Shown here: piece by piece, positions 493 to 28,023 of the stretch
How positions within the stretch are numbered: position 1 is the stretch's first letter
Layout: each line of letters begins with the position of its first letter
From: Candidatus Microgenomates bacterium
GTDB taxonomy: Bacteria; Patescibacteriota; Microgenomatia; JACPZF01
NCBI GenBank assembly: GCA_016199065.1
Contig: JACQHK010000001.1
Span: forward strand, 1-35,968
DNA length: 35,968 nucleotides
Direction of reading: 5' to 3'
Program-made: the position numbers and the translations under genes
Notes under the pieces: generated by a model
What the model was told of the DNA's origin: nothing
The model's database searches: none
Seen by the model: only the letters and a program-made list of their open reading frames with translations

Positions 493-498
493 TTTATT

Positions 499-2238: not shown

Positions 2239-2263
2239 TGATTTTGTTATATAATATTTCCTC

Positions 2264-4967: not shown

Positions 4968-4969
4968 CT

Positions 4970-5962
4970 ATGTTACCAAAAACGTTACAGTCAAAATTAG
5001 AAAAGGAATTAGGAGAGGGAAGAATTAAACGAGATGAAAAATTAGCTCTCCATACCAGCTGGCGCATTGGTGGTTTAACTAGGTTTTGGTTTGAAGCAAA
5101 AAACCAGGATGAGTTAGTAAAAGCAGTGATCATGTCCAGAAAACTCAGTCTCCCCCTTTTCGTCTTGGGAGGGGGCACCAATGTTTTAATCGGTGACAAA
5201 ACTTTTCCCGGTTTAGTTATTAAAAATAATAGCGGGCAGATAAAAATATTAGGAGTAGGCGGAAAAATCGTTAAAGGAGAGAGACAAGACTCGCGAGTTT
5301 TAGTAGAAGCTGATTCAGGAGTGGTGTTTAACCGCCTAGTTCGCTTTACCCTGGACGAAGCTTTATCCAATTTTGAATCATTTTTGGGCCAGCCAGGTTC
5401 AGTGGGAGGCGCCATATATATTAACGCGCATTTTATGAAAGACAAAAAGTACGTGGGAGACTATGTTTCCAGTGTGAAATTACTTGATTCCAATAATCAG
5501 GTCAAAGAAGTGGGATTGGATTATTTGCAATTTGGTTATGATTATTCAAAAATACAGGAGACACAAGACATTGTCTTAAGCGCCACTTTTAATTTCACGC
5601 GCTTTGTAAAAGAAAAAGTTTGGGAAAGAGCCAACCAGACGACTTTTTACCGACAAACTACACAACCGTCCGGTTATCCTACTGCCGGATGTACCTTTCG
5701 CAATATATCTTACGCGCAAGCCCTTTTTATTCCTACGCCCGAATATACCACGTCGGCCGGATATTTAATTGATCAATGTGGACTTAAGGGTAAGGTAATC
5801 GGAGGGGCACAAATTTCTGACCAGCATGCCAATTTTATTCTCAATGTCAAAAACGCTTCGGCACAGGACGTACTGGATCTAATTAATCTCTGCAAACAAA
5901 AAGTTAAAGAAAAATTTAATATTGAATTACACGAAGAAGTAGTTTTAAAAGGAGTTTTTTAA
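4970..5962 (+). CDS. murB: UDP-N-acetylenolpyruvoylglucosamine reductase
   Basis: LGGGTNVLIGD FAD-binding motif, GQPGSVGGAIYINA, AGYLIDQCGLKG; dcw position. Confidence 0.92.
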   Translation: MLPKTLQSKLEKELGEGRIKRDEKLALHTSWRIGGLTRFWFEAKNQDELVKAVIMSRKLSLPLFVLGGGTNVLIGDKTFPGLVIKNNSGQIKILGVGGKIVKGERQDSRVLVEADSGVVFNRLVRFTLDEALSNFESFLGQPGSVGGAIYINAHFMKDKKYVGDYVSSVKLLDSNNQVKEVGLDYLQFGYDYSKIQETQDIVLSATFNFTRFVKEKVWERANQTTFYRQTTQPSGYPTAGCTFRNISYAQALFIPTPEYTTSAGYLIDQCGLKGKVIGGAQISDQHANFILNVKNASAQDVLDLINLCKQKVKEKFNIELHEEVVLKGVF

Positions 5963-7296: not shown

Positions 7297-7308
7297 TTAA
7301 ATAGGTTT

Positions 7309-7336
7309 TACTATGATACTGCACAGTATCATAGTA
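7309..7336. terminator. Hairpin between convergent murA and femX-like genes (candidate bidirectional terminator)
   Basis: Perfect 13-bp inverted repeat TACTATGATACTG-CA-CAGTATCATAGTA; only a weak T tract follows. Confidence 0.5.
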
Positions 7337-7360
7337 TTTAAGGGTTAAATTGTTGTTAAA

Positions 7361-8383
7361 TTATATTTTTCTTATTTTTTTCCGGATATTTTCCACCAAA
7401 TAATTTAAAAAGTATCTTTTCCTGTCAATCACGAAGTCTTGAGCATGAAGATAAGCTACGTCTTGCCCGCCAAACCCTCTCTTGAATACCGAAACATTAT
7501 AAAAACGATGGGCCGGATTGTTGGTTGAAGTTACTCCCCAAAAATTATATTTCCTAAAACCTCGTTTTTGGGCATCTTTAATTGCTTCCCATTGAATTAA
7601 ATAGGCACCGGGATGTTTCCTTCCCTCTGAGGTGCCAGTTCCGTAATGATAAACGGCTTCTTGGTTATAAAAAATTATAAAAGCTTGGGCTAACAACGTG
7701 TCTTCGTAATATGCTTCATACAAGAGAGCAGTTTTGTTTTTAGCAAATTCAGTAAACTGGTTTACTAAAAAATCATACGTAAAAGGAACAAATTTATGGC
7801 GGCGTGCCGTTTCCAGTTGTATTTCGTAAAAAAGTTTTATTTTCTGTGGATTGTCTGATTTTTCAACTCGGATATTTTGTGAAATTGCTTTTTTAATCTC
7901 GTACCTGGTTGATTTTCTCATCTTGGACAATAGTTGATCCGGGGACAGAGCAAGATCCAGCACAGAAGTAAGTTCGGCATGCAGATGGATTAACGCGTCT
8001 TTAGAACCGTGATCAGAAAAAATATTTTTGTTTGACTGACTTTCTAAAAGCTGCGGACGTATTCTGATAAAAACGCAAGAGTTTTGTCGGGCGATATTTT
8101 TAATCTCGCTAAAAAAAGTTTCCACCAATTCTTTTGTTGGCCAATCAATAATTGGTCCTCCGGGAATAACGAGATGTTTACCTCTTTTGGCCGTTTCAAT
8201 AATTGCTAAGCAGACACCGATCATCTTACCCTCTTCTTCAAAAGCGAGCCGGAAAATTTTTTTTCCCAGTTTTTCGTTAAATTCTCCCCAAGACCATGAC
8301 TGAAGAAAGGAAGACTCCTCATGACTTAAGAGAAATTCTTCCCAATCGTGTTTGTTGCTCTGTAGATTTACTTTAATAACCAT
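7361..8383 (-). CDS. FemAB/FemX-family peptidyltransferase (GNAT fold), peptidoglycan interpeptide bridge
   Basis: SFLQSWSWGEF N-terminus, RKSTRYEIKKA, GAYLIQWEAIKDAQKRGFRKYNFWG; characteristic of FemAB (COG2348). Confidence 0.85.
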   Translation of the reverse strand: MVIKVNLQSNKHDWEEFLLSHEESSFLQSWSWGEFNEKLGKKIFRLAFEEEGKMIGVCLAIIETAKRGKHLVIPGGPIIDWPTKELVETFFSEIKNIARQNSCVFIRIRPQLLESQSNKNIFSDHGSKDALIHLHAELTSVLDLALSPDQLLSKMRKSTRYEIKKAISQNIRVEKSDNPQKIKLFYEIQLETARRHKFVPFTYDFLVNQFTEFAKNKTALLYEAYYEDTLLAQAFIIFYNQEAVYHYGTGTSEGRKHPGAYLIQWEAIKDAQKRGFRKYNFWGVTSTNNPAHRFYNVSVFKRGFGGQDVAYLHAQDFVIDRKRYFLNYLVENIRKKIRKI

Positions 8384-9552
8384 TTTTTTATTTCCCCAGA
8401 AATATATAAGGCCTGTTTCCTGTTAGTATTAGAGTGCGTGGGGAGATTTAAAATCTGGTCTGCTATTTTTTCCGCGATGGGACAATCACCTCTTTTATAG
8501 TTTGTTTGGTTTAAATATTTTTTGGGAGCAATAGGGCCATCATACCAGATATCTGACAAATAAATTCCCTTAGTTTTAAGATATTGTATTAAACTAGCCC
8601 TGTTTTTTACCAGAACAGGAAAACGGACACAAGAAGATAACTCAAGACTATGTTGATCGACCAGAACGGTTAACTCGGGAGGCAGATTCTTTAAATATAT
8701 CAAGCTGATTTTCTGACGATGTTTAATGTTATCTGAAAGTTTCTCTAATTGTTGCCTGATCAAAGCCGCATTCCAGGGTGGCAGTTTTTTGTAAACGGAA
8801 GTAAAAGAGGTCATGGGTTGAGAAAGCAAGTTAAATGTTTTGAGAATATGATGTAAAATTTTTCCAGCGCCAATAAAGTAGGTTTTTCTAATTAGATAAG
8901 TTAAAAGCGGATAGAAACGATTTAGAAGATCCTCTCTAAAAGACAAATCAGAAAAACTTTTGGAAAGTGGTAAGGTACCTATGTTTCGTATGATTAATGC
9001 GCCCCCTGTTACTCCGTCAATCATTTTGTCCTGGCTGAAAGAAAACGCACTAAAATCACCCACCGTTCCTGCCGGTCTTTGGTTTGGATAAATTGTTCCG
9101 GCGCTGTGGGCAAGGTCCTCAATGAGGATAAGATTATTTTTTTTACAGGCTTTTTCAATTTCCGTCAGATTGCAGGGGAAACCAAGTGTATTTTGTAATA
9201 AAACAATTTTTAAATCCGGGTTTTTAGCTAGGGTTATTTTTAAGGTACGCGCTGAAAAATTTAAAGAATTTTTTTCCAAATCGACAAAAACCGGGCGACG
9301 ACCGCTTTTTACCACAGCTTCAAAAACGGCAAAGCACGTAAAACCGGTGATACCAACCGCATAGGTTATAGGATAGCTTGTTAAAGCCATTTCTATCGAT
9401 TCGCGGCCTTTATTAGTAAGAATTACCTTTCCCGAGTATTTCTTTTCTAACAAAACCTTTAGTTGATTTAAATAAGATTGGTTGTTAGCCGTAAAAAGTG
9501 CCTTGAGAACAAAATTAAAATTGTAATTAGAGCCGAGGGAATTAAAGATCAT
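8368..9552 (-). CDS. DegT/DnrJ/EryC1-family PLP-dependent aminotransferase
   Basis: LIEDLAHSAG and FSFSQDKMIDGVTGGAL (PLP lysine) motifs. Confidence 0.8.
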   Translation of the reverse strand: MIFNSLGSNYNFNFVLKALFTANNQSYLNQLKVLLEKKYSGKVILTNKGRESIEMALTSYPITYAVGITGFTCFAVFEAVVKSGRRPVFVDLEKNSLNFSARTLKITLAKNPDLKIVLLQNTLGFPCNLTEIEKACKKNNLILIEDLAHSAGTIYPNQRPAGTVGDFSAFSFSQDKMIDGVTGGALIIRNIGTLPLSKSFSDLSFREDLLNRFYPLLTYLIRKTYFIGAGKILHHILKTFNLLSQPMTSFTSVYKKLPPWNAALIRQQLEKLSDNIKHRQKISLIYLKNLPPELTVLVDQHSLELSSCVRFPVLVKNRASLIQYLKTKGIYLSDIWYDGPIAPKKYLNQTNYKRGDCPIAEKIADQILNLPTHSNTNRKQALYISGEIKKWLLK

Positions 9553-10237
9553 GATTTTTTAAGTAGTTAATAATTACTTCTGCTGTTTTTTTGGGGTGAG
9601 TAAAATGTGGGGAGTGTCTGGCGGATTTAATAATTTCCAAGTGAGAATTTGCTATTTTTTTATTCATTAATTTACCATCGGCCAAAGGAGTTATTTGATC
9701 CTTTTCTCCCCAAATAATTAATGTTGGAACTTTAATGGCAGAGAGGATTGGCGTTAAGTCCGAAGAGATGAGATTAAGCATGGTTTCTTTTAAAGGACCA
9801 TTAGCCAGACGATAATCCTGTTCTCCCACCACCCGGTAGAGAAGTTTTTTCATTAATGGCGAAGTGGTAATTTTTTTACCCTTTTTGGCTATCAGATTAA
9901 AAATATTTCTTTTTAACAACAAAAAAAATTCCCGATGGTAAATTCCTGCACTGTCAAGAAGAATTAGTTTTTCGATGTTCTCGGGATGTTGATTTGCAAA
10001 ATAGAGAGCCAGCCTTCCGCCGTTTGAATGACCGAATAAAATCACTTTTTGGTCACCTATTTCCTTTTTTAGCCATTCGGAATAATCATTTACCGTCCAA
10101 ACCGAATCTAGTTGACCAGTCAGGCCAGGTATTTTTAATAATTTACCGGCGATTTTATTGTGTTTCAGGATGGATACAAATTCATGCCATTTTTCGAAAG
10201 AATATGTCCAGCCGTGTAAAATATATATTTTTTTCAT
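9542..10237 (-). CDS. Alpha/beta hydrolase
   Basis: LHGWTYSFEKW (oxyanion region), GHSNGG nucleophile elbow, WGEKDQITP, ARHSPHFTHP. Likely start is the inner Met at 10237, giving an ATGA overlap with murF; the ORF-track start is 10267. Confidence 0.85.
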   Translation of the reverse strand: MKKIYILHGWTYSFEKWHEFVSILKHNKIAGKLLKIPGLTGQLDSVWTVNDYSEWLKKEIGDQKVILFGHSNGGRLALYFANQHPENIEKLILLDSAGIYHREFFLLLKRNIFNLIAKKGKKITTSPLMKKLLYRVVGEQDYRLANGPLKETMLNLISSDLTPILSAIKVPTLIIWGEKDQITPLADGKLMNKKIANSHLEIIKSARHSPHFTHPKKTAEVIINYLKNHDL

Positions 10238-11475
10238 AAGTAGAATTTCTTTCTCCGTTCTTCCCAAACTTTTTCCCGCCTACAAAGATAGCGTTTGTCT
10301 TCGGGGTCCTTTAACAGTGTCTCAACGATTACTTCTAAGAATCCTGCACCTTTAATTAATATTAGTTCTTTTCCGGAAAGATTTTTCAGAAGGTATTCCA
10401 GCCCTTGGCGAGGTCGAGAAAAAGCAACCACATCTTTATTCTTAAGTTGGGGTAGAGTATAGGCAAGATTACGTTTTCCGACCAATATTAATTTTTCAAA
10501 GTCAGATTTTTGTAAAATTTCTGCTAATCTCCCATGTTCTTTTTCCTCATTTTCTCCCAAATCAACCATGTCGCCAACGATGAGCCATTTTTTAGGAGCA
10601 GAAAGTACATTAAAAGTTTCGATCATTGCCTGGGTGGAAGATAAATTTGAATTATAGGTGCTGTCAACGATGGTTGTTTCCCTTATGCCCTTAAATATCG
10701 TATTTCGTCCCGGTTCTAAACGCAAAGCGGAAAAATCTTTCCTCATTGCCTGTCCCAAAAGTGACATAGTTTGGTAAAGCATCTTTAAAGCATAAAAAGA
10801 GTCTTTGGGTAAAATATAATCTAGGTGGCAAATCATTTCTGCGGTCACGAAGTCGGTTCCTTTCAGGGAAACTTCGTATTTTCTCAAGTCATTTTTTTTA
10901 AAGCCAATTATTTTAGCTGCCGTGCGCGATAATTGCTTTTCAATAGCCTGAGAATCTTCATTAACCAGAACATAGTTTTTAGTGTACTTGAGAAAATAGC
11001 CAAATTCATAAGCGATGCTTTCCAAACTCCCGGGAAAAAAATTTCCGCTATGACTTAAGGAGACGTTTTGCCAAAGAGTAATATCCGGATGTAAAAATGA
11101 CGCTAGAAATTTTCCTTCTCCGGTTCGATCGCAGTCGGCTTCTACAAACAAAAGTTTTTGAGAAGGGATTTTCTTCCAGGCAGAGAATGGTGCTTGGAAA
11201 AAAAAGAGTAACCATTCAAAAACAGAGTAGCTTTTCCGCCGCATATTTAATAAATAAAAGGGAATGCCGAATGCGCTGTTGGCACCAAAGGTATAACACG
11301 CCTTGTTACCGAGCTGGTGAGAAAACAAGGAAAGTAAAAACGTTTTACCAGTAGAGCCCGTAATAACGATAATTTTTGGCCGCCAGCGCTGCAGTCTAAT
11401 TCTTGCCCAAAAACGAAAATAGGCCGCTACAGGAAAATATAGTGCGGTTTTGGCCCTTTTGATTATTTGATACAT
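10234..11475 (-). CDS. murF: UDP-N-acetylmuramoyl-tripeptide--D-alanyl-D-alanine ligase-like (MurF)
   Basis: VITGSTGKTF P-loop, STYNSNLSSTQAMIETF and WLIVGDMVDLGENEEKEH (MurF DMxELG-like) motifs. Confidence 0.82.
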   Translation of the reverse strand: MYQIIKRAKTALYFPVAAYFRFWARIRLQRWRPKIIVITGSTGKTFLLSLFSHQLGNKACYTFGANSAFGIPFYLLNMRRKSYSVFEWLLFFFQAPFSAWKKIPSQKLLFVEADCDRTGEGKFLASFLHPDITLWQNVSLSHSGNFFPGSLESIAYEFGYFLKYTKNYVLVNEDSQAIEKQLSRTAAKIIGFKKNDLRKYEVSLKGTDFVTAEMICHLDYILPKDSFYALKMLYQTMSLLGQAMRKDFSALRLEPGRNTIFKGIRETTIVDSTYNSNLSSTQAMIETFNVLSAPKKWLIVGDMVDLGENEEKEHGRLAEILQKSDFEKLILVGKRNLAYTLPQLKNKDVVAFSRPRQGLEYLLKNLSGKELILIKGAGFLEVIVETLLKDPEDKRYLCRREKVWEERRKKFYL

Positions 11476-11547
11476 AGAAGGCTCTTGTATTGTAGCAAAA
11501 TAACCCTTTGATATGCAGCCGAAAGACTAAAAAGCTATAATATTAAT

Positions 11548-12189
11548 ATGTCACAAGAGAACGGAATTGTTCATGAACAAGGAGAATCTGGTAGGGTTGC
11601 TCTTGTTCTTAAAAGCAGAGAGCATTTAAAAAGGGCTTCCGGAATCTTTGAAACTCACGGTTTTTCTTTGGCTACGATAGAGAATCTTATTGATGGAAAT
11701 TACGAAACAATGACTGTAGTAAGTGGACCAACAAGGAAAACTTGGCCGGATGTCGATCCCGTCGAAACTTTTGAGGAGAGGATTATTAAAACTTCCGACG
11801 GAGTAGAACTAGAGCGTTCTAACTGTCATTTCAACCGCATCGAAACTCGTAATGATCAGATTGACGGTAAGCCATGGCGTTTTCTTAACATTTCAACCAG
11901 GATCACTCCCCAGGGAAAACCTACACCGATAGAAATAATTCATGTAACTGGAGGTTATGGAATGATCTATTTTTCTGACAAAATTCAAGGCGATGGAGGT
12001 AACTTTCGAGGATCAAAAACAGGAAGAGTAATTGAATTGGAACCCGGAATGACTGTGGTAGTTACCGAAGAAATTGGTAACGCCATTTCCGGTATTGGCA
12101 AAGACGGGCTGGATTTTATCTATGTTAGCTCACCTCCCTATGAAGATGTGGAAACTGCTTTGGTAAAACCCGAAGTGGAAATTGTTTAA
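11548..12189 (+). CDS. Hypothetical protein with probable C-terminal cupin-like domain
   Basis: GGYGMIYFSDK...GRVIELEPGMTVVVTEEIGNAISG...FIYVSSPPY resembles the paired cupin motifs; TATAAT 6 nt upstream of the ATG. Confidence 0.6.
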   Translation: MSQENGIVHEQGESGRVALVLKSREHLKRASGIFETHGFSLATIENLIDGNYETMTVVSGPTRKTWPDVDPVETFEERIIKTSDGVELERSNCHFNRIETRNDQIDGKPWRFLNISTRITPQGKPTPIEIIHVTGGYGMIYFSDKIQGDGGNFRGSKTGRVIELEPGMTVVVTEEIGNAISGIGKDGLDFIYVSSPPYEDVETALVKPEVEIV

Positions 12190-12236
12190 CCGCTGCTCTT
12201 GCTACAGGTTGTTTTTTCGCGCTATAATCGAGATAC

Positions 12237-12617
12237 ATGCATAAACCTTTTCAAAACCACGGGCATCATATTTCCTTCAAGGCAGCAGTGGAAGGACTTT
12301 TTTTTGCTTTTAAGACCGAGATTAATATGAAATTGATCGTTCTTTTTGCCTTGCTGGCAATCTTACTGTCCCTTTCCTTGCCAATATCTTATTCTGAATG
12401 GCTGGTAATCTTCTTAACAATTATGATTGTTTTTGTGGCGGAAATGATAAACTCCAGTATCGAAGCTGTCTGCGATTTAATCACCCGGGACTGGAACGAA
12501 AACGTCAAAATAGCCAAGGACGTTGCAGCCGGAACAGTTCTGTTGGCCAGTTTTTTTGCCTTGTTAATCGGTCTGGTGATTTTTCTTCCGAAAATTATTA
12601 ACCTGCTGATTACTTAA
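12237..12617 (+). CDS. dgkA: Diacylglycerol kinase / undecaprenol kinase (DgkA family)
   Basis: ALLAILLSLSLPISYSEW, EMINSSIEAVCDLI, KIAKDVAAGTVLLAS motifs; three TMs. Confidence 0.9.
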   Translation: MHKPFQNHGHHISFKAAVEGLFFAFKTEINMKLIVLFALLAILLSLSLPISYSEWLVIFLTIMIVFVAEMINSSIEAVCDLITRDWNENVKIAKDVAAGTVLLASFFALLIGLVIFLPKIINLLIT

Positions 12618-12625
12618 ACCAATTT

Positions 12626-13636
12626 ATGGGACAACTTTTAGGACTTTTATTATTGTCTTTTTTAATTACCAGTATTTTAATTGTACCTTTTATTGATCTG
12701 CTTTATAAATTCAAATTACGCAGAAAAAGACAGGTTACCAGAGACGCTTTTGAGAAACTGACCCCGATTTTTGATAAGTTTCACGGATGGAAGGTCGGTA
12801 CGCCGGTTGGCGGTGGTTTGTTAGTCATTGTTGTCGTAAGTATTTTAACTTTATGGACCTATGAACTTTTTGGTTTTAGCCCGAAATTTTGGGAAGTTTT
12901 TGTGATACTTTTCACCTTTATCTCATTTGGATTGTTAGGGCTGTACGATGATATCAGAAAGACCTTTGGGTATAAACACGACGGGCTTTTCGGTCTGCGT
13001 CTTCGCTTTAAATTACTTTTTCAAATAGTTCTTTCTTTAATTATTGGTCTGATTTTTTATTATAAATTGGGTTTTGATTTTATCAATATCCATTGGTTTG
13101 GGAAAATTGAAATTGGTATTTTATTTATTCCACTAACGTCTTTTGTGGTGGTATCTTTTGCCAACGCGTTTAATATTACCGATGGGTTAGACGGCTTAGC
13201 TTCGGGTCTGTTAGTAATTTGTTTGATTGCTTTTTGGGCTATTTCTTCAACGCTTCTTGATCCGACTCTGGGAATTTTTATTTCTTTATGGATCGGTTCA
13301 GTGTTGGCTTTTCTCTATTTCAATGTTTTTCCTGCTCGTATTTGGTTAGGTGACGTGGGAGCACTTTCGTTTGGGGCAACCCTGGCCGTCGTGGGTTTGT
13401 TGACGGGTAAAATTGCTGCTGTGGGAGTAATTGGCGGGGTACTGGTGGCCGAAGTCGGAAGTTCTCTGTTGCAATTGCTTTCCAAGAAGTTTACGGGTAA
13501 AAAACTTTTCCTGGCCGCGCCGCTCCATCTCTGGTTTCAGAATAAAGGTTGGCCAGAACCAAAAATCGTCATGAGATTTTGGTTAGTGGGAATTTTGTTT
13601 GCCATCTTTGGTGTGTGGATTGCCGTTATCAAATAA
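12626..13636 (+). CDS. mraY: Phospho-N-acetylmuramoyl-pentapeptide transferase
   Basis: Polytopic; GLYDDIRK, FANAFNITDGLDGLASG, VFPARIWLGDVGALSFGA, APLHLWFQNKGWPEPKIV. Confidence 0.93.
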   Translation: MGQLLGLLLLSFLITSILIVPFIDLLYKFKLRRKRQVTRDAFEKLTPIFDKFHGWKVGTPVGGGLLVIVVVSILTLWTYELFGFSPKFWEVFVILFTFISFGLLGLYDDIRKTFGYKHDGLFGLRLRFKLLFQIVLSLIIGLIFYYKLGFDFINIHWFGKIEIGILFIPLTSFVVVSFANAFNITDGLDGLASGLLVICLIAFWAISSTLLDPTLGIFISLWIGSVLAFLYFNVFPARIWLGDVGALSFGATLAVVGLLTGKIAAVGVIGGVLVAEVGSSLLQLLSKKFTGKKLFLAAPLHLWFQNKGWPEPKIVMRFWLVGILFAIFGVWIAVIK

Positions 13637-13648
13637 TTCAAACAGTCA

Positions 13649-14974
13649 ATGACTATTAATTCCTTCAAAAACAAAAAAGTTCTTGTCATGGGTTTAGGTC
13701 TTCAGGGTGGAGGAGTCGGAAGTGCCCTATATTTTGCCAAAGCCGGAGCACAAGTTACCATTACCGATTTAAAAACCGAAAAACAACTTGAACCATCATT
13801 AAAATTGCTGAAAAATTATTCTTTTAAATATGTTTTAGGAAGGCACGACTTGGCGGATTTTTTGAACAGTGATCTAATTGTAAAAAACCCCGATGTGTCC
13901 TGGGACAGTGAATATATCAAAAAAGCTCAAAAAAAAAGCATTCCTATAGAGATGGAAGAAAGTCTTTTTGTAAAAATGTCACCCTCTAAAATTATAGGAA
14001 TAACCGGCACCAGAGGTAAAAGTACAGTAAGTAAGTTAGTCTATGAAGTTCTAAAAAATAACCAGAAGCGCGTCTTTTTAGGCGGTAACATGAAAGGTTC
14101 AAGGACCTTAGAACTTCTTTCTCAAACGTCAAGAAAGGATTGGGTAGTGCTGGAATTATCCAGTTGGCAGCTGTCCGCTTTTACCAAAAGTCCCCATATT
14201 AGTTTGATCACCAATCTTTATCCAGACCACTTAAATCGTTATGGATCAATGACAAAATATATTAAAGATAAAAAAAACATTTTTCGTTTTCAGAAAGTCT
14301 CTGATTATTTACTACTAAACTATGAAAATGAAACGACAAGAAAATTTGCAACGGAAACTAAGAGCAAAGTAATTTTCTTTAAGAAAAACGATTGGCCAAA
14401 AGATTGGCCACTAAAAATTTTAGGGACCCATAACATCAGTAATGCCGCAGCGGTTTGGAAGCTGGCTCAATTATTAGGTCTGGATAATGAGATAACCAGA
14501 AAAACTATTCAGGATTTTTCCGGTCTAGATTATCGTCTGCAAAAAGTGAGAGAAATTAACGGCAGACAATTTATTAACGATTCGACATCCACGACCCCCA
14601 TTGCCACGATTGCTGCCATAAAATCTTTTCCCCCCGGGTCAATAATATTGTTATTGGGCGGTAACGATAAAAGCTTGCCGTTACAGGAATTGCTTGAGGA
14701 AATTAAAAAAAGAGTGAAGTATGTCGTATTACTTAAAGGTTCTGGAACCGAGAGATTATTAACTTTGCTAAAAAAAGATCCGCAACTGGCCCAAAGATTT
14801 TCTCCGGTTTTCTCAGATTATCGCAAAGCAGTTAAACTGGCTTCTAGTAAGGCAAAAAGGGGTGAAACTGTGTTGCTTTCTCCTGGTTTTACCTCTTTTG
14901 CCATGTTTAATAATGAATTTGAAAGAGCTGAAAAATTTAATTTGTATGCCCAAGAACTTAAGACTAAAATTTAA
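13649..14974 (+). CDS. murD: UDP-N-acetylmuramoylalanine--D-glutamate ligase
   Basis: GLGLQGGGVGSALY, GITGTRGKSTVSKLV, LELSSWQL, ITNLYPDHLNRY, DSTSTTPIATIAAI. Confidence 0.92.
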   Translation: MTINSFKNKKVLVMGLGLQGGGVGSALYFAKAGAQVTITDLKTEKQLEPSLKLLKNYSFKYVLGRHDLADFLNSDLIVKNPDVSWDSEYIKKAQKKSIPIEMEESLFVKMSPSKIIGITGTRGKSTVSKLVYEVLKNNQKRVFLGGNMKGSRTLELLSQTSRKDWVVLELSSWQLSAFTKSPHISLITNLYPDHLNRYGSMTKYIKDKKNIFRFQKVSDYLLLNYENETTRKFATETKSKVIFFKKNDWPKDWPLKILGTHNISNAAAVWKLAQLLGLDNEITRKTIQDFSGLDYRLQKVREINGRQFINDSTSTTPIATIAAIKSFPPGSIILLLGGNDKSLPLQELLEEIKKRVKYVVLLKGSGTERLLTLLKKDPQLAQRFSPVFSDYRKAVKLASSKAKRGETVLLSPGFTSFAMFNNEFERAEKFNLYAQELKTKI

Positions 14975-16052
14975 ATTACGCAGTACTAAAACAGATTGGT
15001 ATCTAATCACCACGGTAATTTCCTTGGTGTTATTTGGTGTGTTGATGGTTTTTAATGCTTCTTCAATTTCTGCTTTAACGGACTTCGGGAATAAATTTTA
15101 CTATCTACGAGAACAATCAAAATGGGTGATTATCGGTGTGCTGGGACTTCTTTACGCGTCCTTTTTTGATTACAAAAAATATTTTTACTTGGCACTGCCA
15201 TTATTGCTGGTTTGTCTCTTACTCTTAATATTGGTATTTGTTCCCGGGTTGGGGGTTAACGCTTTAGGCGCACATCGTTGGATAAATTTTCATTTATTTA
15301 TTTTACAGCCTTCTGAATTTACCAAACTGTCCTTAATAATTTATTTGTCGGCCTGGTTTTCCCAAAAAGAAAAGAAAAGATTTTTTGCCTTTCTCTTATT
15401 GCTGGCCATGATTGTAGGTTTAATAATCTTACAGCCAGATATGGGAACAGGTGTGGTTTTGGTTAGTATCAGTCTGATTTTATATTTTGTCTCTGGTGCG
15501 CCCCTGATGCATTTTGGCGTCTTTTTGCCTTTGGGGTTTATGGCGGGTGTCTTTTTGGCAATTACCTCTCCCTATCGTTTAAACAGAGTTTTAACTTTTT
15601 TTAATTCTTCCCGCGATCCTTTGGGTGCTTCGTATCACGTGCGTCAAATCTTAATCGCCTTAGGATCAGGAGGTTTATTGGGCTTAGGTTTCGGTAAATC
15701 ACGCCAAAAGTTTGCTTATCTTCCCGAAGCCACCACCGATTCCATCTTTGCCATCATTGCCGAAGAGCTTGGTTTTATCGGTTCTACAATCTTAATTTTA
15801 GTTTTTTTGTTTTTGATCTATCGTATCTTTAGTATCGCCAAACGAGCTCCTGATAATTTCGGAAGACTTCTGGCGGTAGGAATTGGTTCATGGTTTGCCA
15901 TGCAAATTATTATTAATCTGGGTGCCATGGTGGCTTTAATTCCCTTAACGGGAATTCCCTTACCGTTTATTTCCTATGGTGGGTCATCTTTGGTGGTGGC
16001 TCTCTTTGCCGTTGGCATATTAATTAACATCAAAAGACAAGGAAAAACATGA
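14946..16052 (+). CDS. ftsW: Lipid II flippase/glycosyltransferase FtsW (SEDS family)
   Basis: QPDMGTGVVL, YHVRQILIALGSGGLLGLGFGKSRQKFAYLPEATTDSIFAIIAEELG, PLPFISYGGSSL. Start assigned to inner ATG 14946 (ORF track begins 14862). Confidence 0.92.
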   Translation: MPKNLRLKFKLRSTKTDWYLITTVISLVLFGVLMVFNASSISALTDFGNKFYYLREQSKWVIIGVLGLLYASFFDYKKYFYLALPLLLVCLLLLILVFVPGLGVNALGAHRWINFHLFILQPSEFTKLSLIIYLSAWFSQKEKKRFFAFLLLLAMIVGLIILQPDMGTGVVLVSISLILYFVSGAPLMHFGVFLPLGFMAGVFLAITSPYRLNRVLTFFNSSRDPLGASYHVRQILIALGSGGLLGLGFGKSRQKFAYLPEATTDSIFAIIAEELGFIGSTILILVFLFLIYRIFSIAKRAPDNFGRLLAVGIGSWFAMQIIINLGAMVALIPLTGIPLPFISYGGSSLVVALFAVGILINIKRQGKT

Positions 16053-17212
16053 GAATTGCAATTTGTGGCGGACATTTGACTCCTGCCCTGGCGGTCTTAG
16101 AAAGTTTAAGAGAAAAAGATCCCCGCAGCCAAATTATATTTTTTGGCGTAAAGCACACGCTGGAAAACGAAAAAACCTTGTCGTTGGAGTTTCAGACCAT
16201 TTCTCAAATTACGGGTGTGGAATTTGTTCCACTGACTTCCGGAAAATGGCAGAGGTATTTTACTTTTAAAAATTTATTAACCCCTTTGTTAGTACTGAAA
16301 GGATTTTGGCAAAGCTTGAAAACGCTTCACAATTTTAAACCACAGGTGATCATGGCTTTTGGGAGCTATCTTTCGGTTCCCGTCGTCATTGCCGGTTGGG
16401 TTTTGAGAATTCCGATAGTGATTCATGAACAAGGTATTGAAGCAGGGATTGCCAATAGAATTAGCTCGCTGTTTGCCAGGAGAATTTGCCTGTCTTTTGC
16501 CCAAAGCAGAACATATTTTCCAATTAAAAAGGCGGTTTTAACGGGAAACCCTCTGCGGAAGAATATAACCAGTCCTACAACCTACCCGGAACTGGAGACT
16601 TTTTTAAAGCAAAACGACCGGTTTCCGATAATTTTAATCACCGGAGGAAATCAGGGTGCGCATTTTATTAATCTTAAAATATTAGAAATTCTGCCATTGC
16701 TTCTTGAAAAATATATAGTGATTCATCAATGCGGAGCATCCCAAAATTATCAGGATTACGAATTGCTAAATGAGGCTGTAAAAAAACAGTCTCTAACGCG
16801 GCAAAGAAGATACCTGTTAATCAAAAATTTCTCTCCGGACTTAATGGGTGCGGTTTACCAAAAAGTAGATTTGGTGATTTCCCGAGGAGGGATAAATTCA
16901 ATATCAGAACTGATATTTTTTCAAAAAAAAGCAATCATTATACCCTTACCATTTTCGGCCAAAAACGAACAATACAACAACGCCTTACTCCTTAAAAAAA
17001 CTAACCAGGTAGAAATTTTGGAGCAGAAAAATTTAGTTTCTGATAAAGTTATGTTAGAAGCGATTGAGTCTTTAATTAAATCGCCGACAATATCTAAAGG
17101 AATGAAAAACGATGTTGATTTTAGATTGGCTGCGGAAAAAATTATCGAAGAAATTTATTCCCAAGCAGGAAATTATAAAGCACAAAACTCGGATAAAACT
17201 GACCTGGAATAA
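16049..17212 (+). CDS. murG: UDP-N-acetylglucosamine--N-acetylmuramyl-(pentapeptide) transferase MurG
   Basis: CGGHLTPALAV, HEQGIEAGIANR, TGNPLRKNI, ITGGNQGAHFIN, ISRGGINSISELIFFQKKAIIIPLP, EQYNNALLL; ATGA overlap with ftsW. Confidence 0.9.
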   Translation: MRIAICGGHLTPALAVLESLREKDPRSQIIFFGVKHTLENEKTLSLEFQTISQITGVEFVPLTSGKWQRYFTFKNLLTPLLVLKGFWQSLKTLHNFKPQVIMAFGSYLSVPVVIAGWVLRIPIVIHEQGIEAGIANRISSLFARRICLSFAQSRTYFPIKKAVLTGNPLRKNITSPTTYPELETFLKQNDRFPIILITGGNQGAHFINLKILEILPLLLEKYIVIHQCGASQNYQDYELLNEAVKKQSLTRQRRYLLIKNFSPDLMGAVYQKVDLVISRGGINSISELIFFQKKAIIIPLPFSAKNEQYNNALLLKKTNQVEILEQKNLVSDKVMLEAIESLIKSPTISKGMKNDVDFRLAAEKIIEEIYSQAGNYKAQNSDKTDLE

Positions 17213-17240
17213 GCCACATCTTCCAGAAAGAAAAAAAAGA

Positions 17241-17630
17241 GTGAACAAAAAGAAAGCGCAGCTTCTTTTACTCGTTTTGCTCTTGATACTCATCATTTTT
17301 GGAGTCTTTATTATTTATAAAAACAAACCGCAGGTGTTTATTAGCATCCCTCAGCCAGGGAAATTAGTCGGGCCGTCAGCTAACAGAGATCTTTATGTGG
17401 ATTTAGTCAATTTGCTAGCCCAAAATCAGCTTTCTGTTAGCTACTTAAACTTTATTGATAATGAAACGATTGAAGCTTCATTAAGCTCCGGAATAAAAGT
17501 TATCTTTACTACAAAAAAGGACATAAAAGAGGAGGTTGCCTCTTTACAATTAATCTTGGCACGTTTTAGAATAGAAGGTAGGAAAGTCAATAAAATTGAT
17601 CTCCGTTTTAAAAACGCGTTTATTGAGTAA
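17241..17630 (+). CDS. ftsQ: FtsQ/DivIB-like division protein, short form
   Basis: Basic N-terminus, one TM, C-terminal KIDLRFKNAF typical of FtsQ; lies between murG and ftsA. ORF track opens at 17112; GTG 17241 is a plausible start. Confidence 0.65.
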   Translation: MNKKKAQLLLLVLLLILIIFGVFIIYKNKPQVFISIPQPGKLVGPSANRDLYVDLVNLLAQNQLSVSYLNFIDNETIEASLSSGIKVIFTTKKDIKEEVASLQLILARFRIEGRKVNKIDLRFKNAFIE

Positions 17631-17672
17631 TTTTAAACAGCAAAAATTATTCTTTAAAACGTAAAATTTAAT

Positions 17673-18977
17673 ATGGCCAAAGATAAAATTGTTGTCGGTA
17701 TCGACGTTGGTACCTCCAAAGTTACCACAGCCATCGCCTCCGTAGAAGAAAACATGGTTAACGTTATCGGAGTATCTACGATTCCTTCCAAAGGTTTACG
17801 CAAGGGCCAGGTGGTAAATATCGAGGAAGCCGTAGCAAACGTTTCCCAAAGTCTTGAGTCAGCAGAACGAATGGCTGGTTTGAGCGTTTCTTCGGCCTTT
17901 GTTTCTATTGGAGGAACTCACATCAGCTGTCAAAACAGCAAGGGTGTCGTGGCAGTAGCCGAACCGGATAAAGAAATAACTCAAGATGATGTGCGTCGTG
18001 TTGTAGAAGCCTCCAGGGCCATCAGCCTTCCTTCTGTCAGAGAAATTTTGCACGCCATTCCGCGTCATTTTATTGTTGATAGCCAGGAGGGAATTGCTGA
18101 CCCCACGGGCATGAGCGGAGTGCGTTTAGAAGTAGACACACATATTATTACCAGTTCTTCTACAGCATCGAGAAATTTGGCAAAGTGCATTGAAGAATTG
18201 GGAGTCTCTGTTTCGGGGCTAGTTTTTTCCGGACTTGCTTCATCTTATGCTGTTTTAACCGACACGGAAAAAGAGTTAGGCGTGGTGATGGTTGATATCG
18301 GAGGAGGAACGACCGACATAAGTATCTTTGTAGACGGAGCTTTATCGTATTCTTGCGTAATTCCGGTAGGAGCAAGAAATATTACCAACGATCTGGCCAT
18401 CGGTTTGCGCATTTCCTTAGAAAGCGCCGAAAAAATAAAAATCGCCTTAAGCAAAAAACACAAAACTCCTGCCTTACCCGAGGAGTTTTTAGGAACCAAA
18501 GGAAAAAAAGAAGAAACCAATAAAGATGAGTTGGATTTTTCCGAACTTGATCTGCCCGAAGGATTAAAAAAAGTTTCCAAAAGGACATTAATAGACGGTA
18601 TTATTAGGCCGCGTTTAACGGAGATTTTTACATTGGTAGGCATAGAGCTGCAAAATAGCGGTTTTGGCGGTCAGACACCTGCAGGAGTGGTAATAACGGG
18701 CGGCGGAGCGGAAACCATCGGAGTACCAGAGGCTTGCAGGCAGCGTCTTTCTTTACCAGTTAGATTGGGATATCCTACCGGAGTAACAGGATTAATTGAT
18801 GAGCTGCAAAGTTTACCCAGTTCTACCGCCGTGGGACTTTTATTATATGGTGCCCAAGGCGAAGAAGGTGGTACCAAAGGTTGGTCTGTACCAAAATTTT
18901 CCTCATTCGGTTCAAAAATTCCCGTAAAGGGGATTGCAAAGAAGCTTATAGATTTGATAAAATCCTTCCTGCCTTAA
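17673..18977 (+). CDS. ftsA: Cell division protein FtsA
   Basis: VVGIDVGTSKVTT, VVMVDIGGGTTDISIF, GVVITGGGAETIGV; upstream of ftsZ. Confidence 0.95.
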   Translation: MAKDKIVVGIDVGTSKVTTAIASVEENMVNVIGVSTIPSKGLRKGQVVNIEEAVANVSQSLESAERMAGLSVSSAFVSIGGTHISCQNSKGVVAVAEPDKEITQDDVRRVVEASRAISLPSVREILHAIPRHFIVDSQEGIADPTGMSGVRLEVDTHIITSSSTASRNLAKCIEELGVSVSGLVFSGLASSYAVLTDTEKELGVVMVDIGGGTTDISIFVDGALSYSCVIPVGARNITNDLAIGLRISLESAEKIKIALSKKHKTPALPEEFLGTKGKKEETNKDELDFSELDLPEGLKKVSKRTLIDGIIRPRLTEIFTLVGIELQNSGFGGQTPAGVVITGGGAETIGVPEACRQRLSLPVRLGYPTGVTGLIDELQSLPSSTAVGLLLYGAQGEEGGTKGWSVPKFSSFGSKIPVKGIAKKLIDLIKSFLP

Positions 18978-19036
18978 TAACTAAACGCAAAAACTTATAA
19001 AACCTTCTTGTTCTGCCCAAAGAAAGGAAAATATTT

Positions 19037-20164
19037 ATGCTCATTAAGCCTGATTTGGCTAAATTCGCCAAAATAAAAGTGATCGGTGTCGGTGGCGGTG
19101 GTTGCAACGCAATTAACTCCATGATTTCTACCCAACAAATTCAAGGAGTAGATTTTATTGGTGTTAACTGTGACGCCCAGGCGCTTTTAACCTGTCTTGC
19201 TCCCATCAAAGTTCAAATCGGGGATAAATTAACCAAAGGCTTAGGTGCCGGAGCAGATCCTGAGGTGGGAAGAATGGCGGCTGAGGAAAGTAGGGAGAAG
19301 ATTAAAGAGGCCTTATTGGAGGCAGATATGGTTTTTATCACAGCAGGAATGGGTGGGGGAACAGGAACAGGAGCCTCTGCGATTATTGCCGAAATTGCTA
19401 AAGAAGTAGGTGCACTAACTATGTCGGTAGTTACCAAACCCTTTATTTTTGAAGGAACAAGAAGGATGATTGTGGCAGAGGGCGGAATTGCCAGTTTGAA
19501 AGATAAGGTTGACGCGTTAATCGTGATTCCTAACCAAAGATTGCTGGATGTGGTGGATAAAAAAATGACCCTCATTGAGGCGTTTAAAGTGGCTGATTCG
19601 GTTCTGGGTCATGGTGTGCAGGGAATTTCTGATTTAATCACCTTGCCTGGGCTTATTAACGTCGACTTTGCCGACGTGAAAGCCATTATGCAGGATGCCG
19701 GATCAGCCTTAATGGGAATTGGTATGGGAGCCGGAGAAAATCGGGCAACAACTGCAGCAAGAACAGCAATTTCCTCACCCTTGCTCGAAATTTCCATTGA
19801 TGGCGCTAAAGGTGTGTTGTTTAATATCACCGGCGGAACGGATTTGACCATGAATGAGGTTGACGAAGCCGCCAAAATTATTTCCCAGGCAGCAGATCCT
19901 GATGCCAACATTATTTTTGGTGCCGTGATTGATGATTCCATGGTGGATCAGGTAAAAATCACCGTTATAGCTACAGGTTTTGACGAAAGTAAAAGAAGAC
20001 TTAAGGAAATGGTTACCCAACAGCCTGTTACCAGAGGACAAGGATATAATTATCGCCAGCCCGAAGAAAAACCAATGCAAACTACTACCCAAACAGGCGA
20101 ACAGCCCGAAGAAGAAAAAGATATTTGGGATATCCCCGCGTTCTTGAGGCAAAACAAAAGCTAA
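19037..20164 (+). CDS. ftsZ: Cell division protein FtsZ
   Basis: [26 protein letters not shown]-terminal [10 protein letters not shown] conserved peptide; AAAGGA SD. Confidence 0.97.
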
Positions 20165-23964: not shown

Positions 23965-24846
23965 ATGAAAAATGATCAGAAAAAGGATAAATATAGTGCT
24001 GTTTGGGTTTCTTACTCATCTATTAGTGACTACCTAAAATGTCCCCGTGCCTATTATTTAAAAAACATTTGGCGTAATCCGCAAACAGGACACAAGGTAC
24101 AGATTATTAATCCTCAACTGGCCTTAGGACAGGCAGTTCACGAAGTCGTGGAGTCTCTGTCTTTGTTACCGGTAGATAAGCGACTTACCGATTCATTATT
24201 TGAAAAATTTGAGAGGGCTTGGAAAAAAATAAGCGGAAACGCAGGTGGTTTTTCGAATCAGGCAACCGAAGAAGCTTTTAAAAATCGTGGCCTTTCCATG
24301 TTAAAAAGAATTGTCGCCAATCCGGGCCCGATCGCCAAACTCGCGGTAAAGATCAAAGAAGAAATCCCTCATTTTTGGCTTTCGGAAGAAGACGGAATAA
24401 TCTTATGCGGAAAAATCGACTGGCTTGAGTATTTAGCCGAAAGCGACTCGGTGCATGTGATTGATTTCAAGACCAGTAAATCTACTGAAAATCCCAATTC
24501 TCTTCAATTGCCGATTTATCAATTATTAGTAACTTATTGCCAAAAGAGAAAATTGGCCAAGGCCAGCTATTGGTATTTGGAATTTAGCGATATTTGTGAG
24601 GAAAAAACTTTATCCGATATTAACCTTTCCCAAGAACAGGTTTTAAAGATTGCCAAACAGATTAAAGTTGCAAGACAGCTACAGCGATTCGTTTGCAAAA
24701 GTCAAAACGGCTGTTCAGCATGTCTTCCTCTGGAAAAAGTTTTTCGGGGAGAAGCCAAGTTGGTGGGAGTCAATGATTTTAAACAGGATACCTTCGTCAT
24801 TCCTGATCATCAGTTCAGAGAGGGCGAAGAAAGCGAGATCCTGTAA
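23965..24846 (+). CDS. PD-(D/E)XK nuclease (RecB/Cas4/AddB-like)
   Basis: SSISDYLKCPRAYYL, LGQAVHEVVESL, GKIDWLEYL, VIDFKTSK, C-terminal C-x5-C-x2-C. Confidence 0.85.
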   Translation: MKNDQKKDKYSAVWVSYSSISDYLKCPRAYYLKNIWRNPQTGHKVQIINPQLALGQAVHEVVESLSLLPVDKRLTDSLFEKFERAWKKISGNAGGFSNQATEEAFKNRGLSMLKRIVANPGPIAKLAVKIKEEIPHFWLSEEDGIILCGKIDWLEYLAESDSVHVIDFKTSKSTENPNSLQLPIYQLLVTYCQKRKLAKASYWYLEFSDICEEKTLSDINLSQEQVLKIAKQIKVARQLQRFVCKSQNGCSACLPLEKVFRGEAKLVGVNDFKQDTFVIPDHQFREGEESEIL

Positions 24847-24860
24847 ACGTAAACTTTAAA

Positions 24861-26006
24861 ATGCAAAAGTCTAAACTTCATTTAATTTCATTGTTTTTTT
24901 CTCTTATCTTTTTGTTTCTTCTGGCAATTCTTCAACCGGTTTTAGCTCAGGAAACAGCACTTAAATATGATAAAGAAGAGAGAATTGAAGCAGTTGTTGT
25001 AAAAATTTCTCAAGAAAAAGAAATTACAGTGATGGGAAAGGAAAACCTTTCTCAAACTCTGGAGCTAGAATTTTTACCGCCTGCACTCAGAAAAAGAGTC
25101 ACTTTAACCACCGGAAATATTCCAACAGCTTATCAGCCGGTCTATAAAGTAAATGACACGGTTGTTTTAAACTCTCTTGTGACGGGAAACGGAGAAAAAA
25201 CTTACATCATCACAGATTACGTACGACGTGATGCTCTGTATTGGCTATTTCTTATTTTTGTCATTTTAACGATTTTTGTTGCCCGAAGAAGAGGAATTTT
25301 TTCTCTTTTGGGAATGTTCATTTCCTTTTTCTTGATCGTAAAATTTTTGTTACCCCAAATTATGTCCGGTAACGACCCGATATTAATTGCCGTTTTGACC
25401 GCGCTCGCGATCATTCCTCTCACTTTTTATTTGTCACACGGTATTAACTTAAAAACCAGTATTGCTGTCTTGGGAACCGTGACAGCCTTAATTATTTCCG
25501 GTCTGTTGGCAAATTATTTTATCGTATCAGCTAAATTGTCAGGATTTTCTTCGGAGGAGGCGGTCTTTTTACAAGTACAGAACCCTAATTTCGCCAATAT
25601 TAGGGGTCTAATACTAGCAGGAATTATTATCGGTTTGGTGGGAATTTTGGATGACATTACTATTTCTCAAGCGGCTATAGTTCGGCAGTTAAAAACCAAT
25701 TCTCCCAAATTAGGTTTTTGGGAACTGTATCAAGGAGCAATGGAGGTAGGAAAAGACCACATTGCTTCTTTGGTCAATACTTTAATTTTAGTTTATACCG
25801 GCGCCGCTCTCCCCCTTCTATTATTGTTTGTTAATAATCCCGCACCATTTGCCGACGTAATAAACTTAGAGTTGGTAGCAGAAGAAATCTTAAGAGCGTT
25901 GGTAGCTAGTATTGGTTTAATTTTGGCCGTACCCATAACGTCTCTTTTAGCGGCAGTTGTTTTTGGGAATAAAAAATATTATGATTTACGCATAAATATT
26001 AAATAG
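24861..26006 (+). CDS. YibE/F family membrane protein
   Basis: N-terminal signal/TM, multi-TM, GILDDITISQAAIVRQL, GKDHIASLVNTLILVYTGAALPLLLLF. Confidence 0.85.
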   Translation: MQKSKLHLISLFFSLIFLFLLAILQPVLAQETALKYDKEERIEAVVVKISQEKEITVMGKENLSQTLELEFLPPALRKRVTLTTGNIPTAYQPVYKVNDTVVLNSLVTGNGEKTYIITDYVRRDALYWLFLIFVILTIFVARRRGIFSLLGMFISFFLIVKFLLPQIMSGNDPILIAVLTALAIIPLTFYLSHGINLKTSIAVLGTVTALIISGLLANYFIVSAKLSGFSSEEAVFLQVQNPNFANIRGLILAGIIIGLVGILDDITISQAAIVRQLKTNSPKLGFWELYQGAMEVGKDHIASLVNTLILVYTGAALPLLLLFVNNPAPFADVINLELVAEEILRALVASIGLILAVPITSLLAAVVFGNKKYYDLRINIK

Positions 26007-26034
26007 GAGGTTGAGGATTTTATAGTCAGGGCAA

Positions 26035-26210
26035 AGCGTGTGGCCCGCCGATGCGGCGGGAGACGAGGAAGAAGGTTCCCCCCGCTCAACGGGAGGAAAA
26101 TCGGACTTTCAGGATTTCTGAAAAGTATCTGCGGAAACCTTCAGGTTGCAACTGTCAACCTTAAAGATTTAGAAAAAGTTTCGGGTAACCGAAACCACAG
26201 AGATAAATCT
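26035..26210 (+). ncRNA. glmS glucosamine-6-phosphate-activated ribozyme/riboswitch (divergent)
   Basis: Directly upstream of glmS. AAA|GCGTGTGG cleavage-site-like segment (A26035|G26036); P1-like CCCGCC-GATGC-GGCGGG; invariant GACGAGG (26062-26068); P2-like GAAGGTT (26071-26077)/AACCTTC (26136-26142); ATCTGCGG vs canonical AUCGGCGG; P3-like AGGTTG...CAACCT (26143-26161); P4-like AGATTT...AAATCT (26165-26210) with inner GTTTCGG-GTAA-CCGAAAC GNRA hairpin. Confidence 0.85.
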
Positions 26211-26247
26211 AAACAGTTAATCCTCTCAAACTTCCAACCTCTTTCTT

Positions 26248-28023
26248 ATGTGTGGAATTTTTGCCTATATAGGTAAAAACAACAGGGCAGGTGACATTGC
26301 CTTTAATGGACTTAGGCGTTTGGAATACCGTGGTTATGACAGTTGGGGTATTGCCGTGTTAACAAAAAAGGGCTTGGTAATTAAGAAAAAAAGGGGGAAA
26401 ATAAGCGAGGCGGCACCGGTTTTACCTGCAAGCAATACGTCAGTAGCTCATACTAGGTGGGCAACTCACGGCAAAGTGTCTGATAAGAACGCTCATCCTC
26501 TTTTTTCTTCCCAAAAAGATTTTTGTCTGGTACATAACGGAATTGTAGAAAATTTTGCTGAACTTAAAAAAAATTTAGTAAAGACTTATAAGTTTTCTAC
26601 ACAAACAGATACTGAGGTAATTGTCAAATTAATCGAAGAAGAGCAAAAAAAGAAACAACCATCGTCAGAGGCAATACGGAAGGCTTTTATTAAACTACAA
26701 GGCCGCAATACTATTATAGTTTTATGCAATAACGGTGATTTGTTTGCAGTCAGAAACGGCTCTCCCTTGGTAATCGGTTTTAATCTTAAAACAAAAGAGT
26801 TGTTCTTTTCCTCAGACGCCTTATCGTTTGCCCAATTGGCTACTCAAATGCATGTTGTTAGAAACGGTCAAATGGCAAGCTATTTTCAACAAAGCGGTAC
26901 CCTAGAATTTTATGATTTGGTAACGAAAGCTAAAATACCGCTTGCTTGGGAGAAGATGGATTTTGTCTCTGCTGAGGTGAGTCACCAAGGTTTTGGTCAC
27001 TACATGATTAAAGAAATTAACGAATCGCCCTGGGTAATTAGACAATTGCTAAAAACCAAGAGATCTGACTTCTATAAACTGACAAGACAAATTAGATTGG
27101 CAAAAAATGTCTACACTATTGGGGCAGGGACAGCAGGAGTCGCTGCTGCCCAAATTGGTTTCTATTTACGAAAGTACGCACACCGGAATACAATTTCTCT
27201 AGTGGCAGCCGACGCTGACGAATATTTACCATTAATGACCAAGCGAGATTTAGTAATTTGTCCTTCCCAAAGCGGTGAAACGGCAGACCTTTTGGAATTT
27301 CTTGAAAAAGCCAAAAAAACCGGAATCAAAATTGTCTCCCTGGTTAACATGCCGGGTTCAACTTTGACGCGAATTTCTAACTTCCGATTTATGAATCAGG
27401 CCGGACCGGAAATTGCGGTAATGTCTACTAAAGTCTTTACCTCACAAATTGCCTGGGGTTACTTACTTGCCAAAACTGTTCAAAAACAATTTTTCCAGGG
27501 AAAGAAGAATCTTCGTAAAACAGCTGACCTTCTGGAAAAAATGCTGCAGGATAAACGATGGTTGAGAAAAATAAAACGTATAGCAGATTTGCTCTCTCTA
27601 AAAAAGAGTATTTTTTTATTGGGAAAATCGGAAAATTTGCAGATTGTCAAAGAAGGAATGATCAAAATGATTGAGGGTTCATACATTCATGCCCAAGCGA
27701 TTCCGGCCGGTGATCTTAAACACTACGCAATTACTCTCATGGAAAAAAATACACCGGTAGTTTGTGTTATCCCTGCTAATTATTTACAAAGTGACGTTTT
27801 GAATTCGGTAAATGAAATAAAGACTCGTGGCGCGCTTGTTATAGCCATAACTCCCGTAAAGCACGAAGCTTTTGACGAGTATATAAAATTACCGGTGGTT
27901 GAGGAGACAACCGCAATTTTAAATGTCCTTCCCTTACAGCTTTTGGCTTATTATTTAGCGTTAAGTTTAGGACACAATGTTGATAAACCAAGAAACATTG
28001 CCAAAAGCGTTACTGTTAAATAA
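26248..28023 (+). CDS. glmS: Glutamine--fructose-6-phosphate aminotransferase (isomerizing)
   Basis: MCGIFAYIG Ntn N-terminus, RLEYRGYDSWGIAV, HTRWATHGKVSDKNAHP, two SIS domains, C-terminal NVDKPRNIAKSVTVK. Confidence 0.97.
   Translation: MCGIFAYIGKNNRAGDIAFNGLRRLEYRGYDSWGIAVLTKKGLVIKKKRGKISEAAPVLPASNTSVAHTRWATHGKVSDKNAHPLFSSQKDFCLVHNGIVENFAELKKNLVKTYKFSTQTDTEVIVKLIEEEQKKKQPSSEAIRKAFIKLQGRNTIIVLCNNGDLFAVRNGSPLVIGFNLKTKELFFSSDALSFAQLATQMHVVRNGQMASYFQQSGTLEFYDLVTKAKIPLAWEKMDFVSAEVSHQGFGHYMIKEINESPWVIRQLLKTKRSDFYKLTRQIRLAKNVYTIGAGTAGVAAAQIGFYLRKYAHRNTISLVAADADEYLPLMTKRDLVICPSQSGETADLLEFLEKAKKTGIKIVSLVNMPGSTLTRISNFRFMNQAGPEIAVMSTKVFTSQIAWGYLLAKTVQKQFFQGKKNLRKTADLLEKMLQDKRWLRKIKRIADLLSLKKSIFLLGKSENLQIVKEGMIKMIEGSYIHAQAIPAGDLKHYAITLMEKNTPVVCVIPANYLQSDVLNSVNEIKTRGALVIAITPVKHEAFDEYIKLPVVEETTAILNVLPLQLLAYYLALSLGHNVDKPRNIAKSVTVK

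Follow-up and report, generated by a model that had tools for sequence, protein, structure and literature searches.

The leader of the glmS gene in a genome of Candidatus Microgenomates bacterium truly belongs to the glmS ribozyme family RF00234 on all features that can be computed. The stretch of DNA analyzed, hereafter the window, comprises 35,968 nucleotides and belongs to a genome of 0.89 Mb in 62 contigs that is 95% complete. A search of the whole window against 4227 Rfam families gave a match to the full RF00234 model with 69.6 bits (E 3.4e-14; gathering cut-off 37 bits), and the sole other Rfam match in the window was a partial tRNA at its end. The RF00234 copy is single in the whole genome, and the model match ends 27 nt 5′ of the glmS ATG. 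The elements of the locus are the following:

24861-26006 (+): YibE/F-like gene, ending just before the P0 helix (PF07907, 236 bits)
26024-26220 (+): glmS ribozyme, RF00234 full model 1-167 (cmscan)
26248-28023 (+): glmS, glutamine-fructose-6-phosphate transaminase, the predicted regulated gene (TIGR01135, 495.5 bits, cut-off 418)

The initial annotation of this DNA had proposed that the leader upstream of glmS is a glmS ribozyme, and had named a search with RF00234 and the analysis of covariation in related genomes as checks. Both gave positive results: the match to the family is significant, P2.2 and P3.1 covary, and the core hairpins recur in relatives.

Cleavage site, catalytic core and pseudoknots

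Direct reading of the sequence at 25800-26500, alignment to the family model, folding and comparison with relatives led to the following assignment of the ribozyme:

26035-26036 (+): predicted cleavage site A-1|G1, context AAA|GCG (alignment to the RF00234 consensus AAAGCG)
26037-26042 (+): 5′ strand of P2.2, C2 G3 U4 G5, bulged U6, G7; partner 26129-26133 (covariation, 50 loci)
26044-26060 (+): P1 hairpin CCCGCCG-AUG-CGGCGGG, 26044-26050 with 26054-26060, AUG loop (sequence, RNAfold)
26062-26068 (+): GACGAGG, with C64, G65 and A66 in P2.1 and G26068 as general-base guanine by homology (sequence; PMC11602151)
26071-26075 (+): 5′ strand of P2, GAAGG; partner 26138-26142 (RF00234 alignment, relatives)
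26100-26103 (+): AUCG, with U101, C102 and G103 in P2.1 with 26064-26066, and A100/U101 as GlcN6P-pocket positions by homology (sequence; roles from PMC7125110)
26129-26134 (+): 3′ strand of P2.2 and conserved CUGCGG (covariation, relatives)
26138-26142 (+): 3′ strand of P2, CCUUC; partner 26071-26075 (RF00234 alignment, relatives)
26143-26161 (+): P3 hairpin AGGUUG-CAACUGU-CAACCU, 26143-26148 with 26156-26161 (RNA fold, relatives)
26165-26210 (+): P4, helix 26165-26171 with 26204-26210, purine-rich internal loop, GUAA tetraloop at 26185-26188 (RF00234 alignment, fold)
26213-26218 (+): 3′ strand of P3.1, ACAGUU; partner P3 loop 26150-26155 (six Watson-Crick pairs; covariation, 50 loci)

All pairs of the double-pseudoknot core P2/P2.1/P2.2 form in the window, and all positions checked against the published catalytic core are kept. 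The conserved active-site letters comprise A-1|G1 (26035-26038), GACGAGG, AUCG and CGG (26132-26134); AGCG, GACGAGG, AUCG and CGG are also kept in nearly all relatives, the first letter of GACGAGG being variable. The A|GCG cleavage context, the P1 and P3 hairpins, the segment AUCUGCGG (26127-26134) and a P4 with an A-rich internal loop and a GNRA hairpin cap had all been recognized in the initial annotation, and each was found at its place. The internal loop of P4 consists of GAAAAA / CACAGAGA, and the GNRA hairpin spans 26178-26195. The GACGAGG motif had likewise been identified correctly, but its general-base guanine had been assigned to 26062, the first G of the motif; by homology to G42 of B. 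subtilis, it is the last one, G26068. This position follows from the published numbering, in which the B. subtilis core starts at G36 and the active-site mutant G42A is homologous to the earlier-studied G40A (PMC11602151). A37 and C38 of the same core form an A37*(C38-G55) triple (PMC11602151). A pairing of GAGGA (26065-26069) with UCCUC (26221-26225), seen in the pseudoknot-free fold, is absent in relatives and was rejected as an artefact of omitted pseudoknots.

The P2.2 pseudoknot exists, as had been claimed, but is longer than the three pairs initially proposed: 26037-26040 (CGUG) pairs with 26130-26133 (UGCG), followed by a bulged U26041 and the pair G26042-C26129, and the four-pair run ends in a tandem U.G/G.U. 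Since the Rfam model contains no pseudoknots, and neither P2.2 nor P3.1 is present in its structure line, these pairings constitute independent evidence. With the bulge allowed at position 4, 5 or 6, pairing is possible for 99 of the 100 variable P2.2 pairs (two in each of 50 parsed loci), the best of 2000 shuffles of the 3′ strands reaching 98; these shuffles keep the relatedness among loci, and the result is to be taken as supportive and not as a probability. The distinct compensating pairs are the stronger point: among the 13 strand combinations found in the 50 loci, C-G, U-G and U-A alternate at one position; the neighbouring position has G-U, U-A or A-U, and a G-C pair is replaced once by A-U. 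In place of consensus G-C pairs, the window has the wobbles U4.G54 and G5.U53, and single mutations at those two positions were damaging in vitro (PMC7125110). The presence of this two-wobble combination in 19 of the 50 patescibacterial loci speaks for its tolerance or selection.

The second pseudoknot, P3.1, was absent from the initial annotation and is known from crystal structures (PMC11602151). In the window, the P3 loop AACUGU is the exact complement of ACAGUU, and at least five Watson-Crick pairs can be formed in 31 of 50 loci, as compared with a mean of 9.2 and a maximum of 17 in 500 shuffles.

Extra hairpins in the core and ribozyme subtypes

Two hairpins that the initial annotation did not contain are inserted into the core:

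26079-26096 (+): extra core hairpin A, between P2 and the GlcN6P-pocket (AUCG) strand (same insertion in 24 of 49 parsed relatives; centroid fold)
26105-26126 (+): extra core hairpin B, in the P2.1-P2.2 loop (also a hairpin in those 24 relatives)

Both occur in about half of the copies from Patescibacteria, that of the window among them. The sequences of these hairpins differ among the 24 loci, with long complementary stems (a mean of 6.8 Watson-Crick pairs each for A and B vs 3.4 and 4.0 in shuffles). Hairpin A, which abuts the cofactor pocket, never occurs without B; four loci have B only, and the remaining loci have neither.

The window shares with the RF00234 type of B. subtilis, B. anthracis and T. 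tengcongensis the cleavage site, the double-pseudoknot core, P1, P2, P3, P3.1, a P4 with GNRA loop and purine internal loop, and the position before glmS. It differs from this type in the two extra core hairpins, in a wobble-rich P2.2, in AAACC preceding the P2 strand, where the consensus has GAUGCC, and in the P0 helix that encloses the ribozyme. Variants of the glmS ribozyme with additional core stems were reportedly described in Deinococcus-Thermus by McCown and others in 2011; these likewise have additional stems within the catalytic core. No Deinococcus glmS locus is among the matches listed.

A group of compact loci was also observed (family f64: L068-L074, L076, L078-L083). They are about 130-140 nt long, their P1 is short, the distal P4 hairpin and the GNRA loop are missing, and the P2.2 bulge has moved to position 4 or 5. 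These bulge shifts match rearrangements that PMC7125110 deduced from mutants.

A P0 helix enclosing the ribozyme

A further helix, absent from the Rfam model and from the initial annotation, encloses the whole ribozyme by pairing a leader strand with a strand located right after P3.1:

26006-26019 (+): 5′ strand of P0, GGAGGUUGAGGAUU, 5′ of the cleavage site (RNAduplex with 26219-26235, -17.4 kcal/mol; geometry kept in relatives)
26219-26235 (+): 3′ strand of P0, AAUCCUC...AACUUCC, with an alternative outer register CAACCUCUU at 26235-26243 (fold, relatives)

The same geometry was seen in relatives (L002, L039-L087, L103-L122), with the inner end of the helix mostly 11-17 nt before A-1 in 51 loci. 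The P0 helix passes the shuffle, held-out and shifted-window tests. In the 51 loci, the mean duplex energy with own flanks was -14.6 kcal/mol, compared with -10.3 (sd 0.37) when the downstream flanks were dealt among loci. For 20 held-out loci, fetched after the P0 idea had been formed, the values were -14.5 vs -11.0 (sd 0.73), beyond all 2000 shuffles. Narrow flanks gave -9.4 vs -6.5 (sd 0.33), and in this test the window's own P0 partner was the best of 51. Shifting the tested segment upstream resulted in no comparable effect (-4.3 vs -3.9, sd 0.26).

An alternative to be weighed is that P0 has no function and arises as a side effect of promoter, Shine-Dalgarno or pyrimidine-tract biases in both flanks. 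The upstream strand of P0 does often contain purine-rich tracts of Shine-Dalgarno-like or GGGA type, and the downstream strand pyrimidine tracts, and only about half of the non-patescibacterial references show the helix clearly (5 of 10 from Firmicutes and Fusobacteria by eye, with a weaker shuffle result of -13.6 vs -11.2, sd 0.99). Dealing flanks among loci keeps such biases, however, and own flanks still pair better both in the 51 loci and in the 20 held-out loci; the upstream-shifted segment shows nothing comparable. We consider this alternative unlikely. As a functional helix, P0 would keep the 5′ end of the RNA paired to the leader and thereby protect the intact message, and cleavage would bypass this protection by creating a new 5′ end inside the clamp.

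The leaders contain other signals upstream of the cut. The motif GGAGG is found 21-36 nt upstream of it in 13 of 69 loci. The sequence AAAGGAGG is present at about the same distance, 21-36 nt, in eight loci (L045, L052, L053, L055, L067, L077, L084, L113); by eye, no well-spaced ATG follows AAAGGAGG in those eight. This sequence resembles the stabilizing Shine-Dalgarno motif (STAB-SD) cited in PMC3997798, and by analogy it may be an mRNA-stabilizing motif that cleavage would remove. In nine loci (L040, L043, L047, L049, L051, L068, L070, L071, L074), TATAAT-like boxes lie about 40-50 nt upstream of A-1, which suggests that their transcripts may start at the P0 5′ strand. In the window, a promoter scan of 25700-26400 revealed no sigma-70 site by consensus.

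Proposed mechanism of glmS control

In known glmS ribozymes, glucosamine-6-phosphate (GlcN6P) made by GlmS binds a preformed pocket and drives cleavage. The architecture of the RNA in the window, its covariation and its tie to glmS are established by the results above, and very probably the element acts as a glmS ribozyme in the 5′ leader, feeding back on amino-sugar synthesis. Speaking against this are the two wobble pairs of P2.2, the position of hairpin A next to the cofactor pocket and the lack of the element in two genomes of the same family. According to this proposal, the RNA would fold into the P2/P2.1/P2.2 double pseudoknot and bind GlcN6P, which would serve as cofactor for a cut between A26035 and G26036, and the downstream 5′-OH fragment would then be degraded by RNase J. 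Cleavage, GlcN6P dependence and RNase J decay are proposed here by analogy with B. subtilis, in which RNase J1 degrades the cleaved glmS mRNA, that is, the 5′-OH fragment (PMC3997798; PMC7125110). Family searches identified both RNase J (540.5 bits, cut-off 400) and RNase Y (558 bits) in the genome, so that the Bacillus mechanism could be carried over.

It is quite improbable that the leader is a ribozyme derivative which no longer cleaves and whose remaining role is to bind GlcN6P or to shape translation. Core changes and inserts do lower the Rfam score of the window to 69.6 bits; nine references from Firmicutes and Fusobacteria score 87-148 bits, and a tenth one 64.8. An RNA that only bound its ligand, however, could dispense with A-1|G1 and the general-base G. 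The letters of the cleavage site and the active site are kept in the window and, except for the first letter of GACGAGG, in nearly all relatives, and the pairs next to the scissile bond covary.

Distribution in Patescibacteria and origin

RF00234 matches were found in 53 of 385 genomes of the window's class, 44 of them above the cut-off, and, in a phylum-wide sample of 389 genomes, in 25. GlmS was detected above the cut-off in 216 of the 385 class genomes, and the ribozyme is thus present in roughly one in five glmS carriers of the class. The glmS gene lies directly downstream on the same strand in 51 of the 52 ribozyme loci read, and follows the ribozyme in 19 of the 20 held-out loci. The exception among the 52, a match of 24.5 bits (L089) with no adjoining glmS and a sequence resembling GC-rich coding DNA, was discarded as a false positive. 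In the window's family, the element was found in one of three genomes, the window's own, the two genomes without it being 83-87% complete. A named Woesebacteria genome (L035) also carries the element before glmS.

The broadening of the class beyond Firmicutes anticipated in the initial annotation is confirmed by the dozens of copies in the class and phylum surveys, and its placement of the DNA in Patescibacteria agrees with the WWE3 genome MEVA01 belonging to the window's phylum. The WWE3 copy (MEVA01000003.1, L002) has the same double-hairpin type and P0 as the window; its P2.2 letters are different (GCGCUUG/CAGCGG) and still pair. In the literature accessible without subscription, no report was found of a glmS ribozyme or riboswitch in Patescibacteria, Candidate Phyla Radiation, candidate phyla or Saccharibacteria.

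Ribozyme presence is clustered on the GlmS tree, with nine changes vs 28 in shuffles; the 95 rows of this tree were partly picked for ribozyme presence, so that it shows clustering and not the rate of loss. One of the nine changes is an artefact due to L075, which is the same gene as L002 and was labelled as having no ribozyme. With one exception (L087), the patescibacterial GlmS proteins in the tree cluster with full support in a group of 63 rows that is separate from the Firmicutes references; within it, the GlmS of the window is sister to that of WWE3 (56% identity). Judging from these sequences, a recent transfer from Firmicutes is unlikely. A chance resemblance, an assembly artefact or contamination from a Firmicute, which the fragmented assembly and the close family members lacking the element might suggest, has a negligible probability given the E value, the independent copies that precede glmS in dozens of cases across the phylum, and the position of the window's GlmS in the tree; for practical purposes, surveys, glmS linkage and tree already refute it.

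Implications

Few natural ribozymes depend on a metabolite, and descriptions of the glmS class come mainly from Firmicutes. The surprising parts of the present data are the spread in Patescibacteria, the core variants and the P0 clamp. We tentatively put forward a broader reading, about which considerable doubt is in order: that glmS ribozymes are an old and widespread control of cell-wall sugar synthesis in Patescibacteria, with a double-hairpin-core and a compact subtype without P4 tetraloop arm, and that in glmS leaders, including those of some Firmicutes and Fusobacteria, the P0 clamp is a functional element so far undescribed. In this reading, the Shine-Dalgarno-like AAAGGAGG that accompanies it upstream of the cut in some loci might stabilize the message until self-cleavage removes the motif. 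If true, the clamp would be a missing piece in the stability of the intact message before cleavage. The spread across the phylum suggests that these host-dependent, small-genome bacteria control their own amino-sugar synthesis by RNA. The natural sequence variation of their copies also allows catalytic models to be tested, for instance the shifted P2.2 bulge predicted from mutants. A 2024 perspective described Patescibacteria as lacking inducible expression tools and named riboswitches as candidates (PMC11665869); a native riboswitch would help to supply such tools.

Other genes in the window

A protein of 213 residues encoded at 11548-12189 had no NCBIfam or Pfam match at E 0.001. At 23965-24846, a PD-(D/E)XK nuclease-family protein (PF12705) shows weak similarity to Cas4. 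A long run of cell-wall and division genes (169-20164) lies upstream of glmS and includes, with names given by eye from the translations, those for a penicillin-binding protein, mur ligases, mraY, an ftsW-like gene, murG, ftsA and ftsZ.
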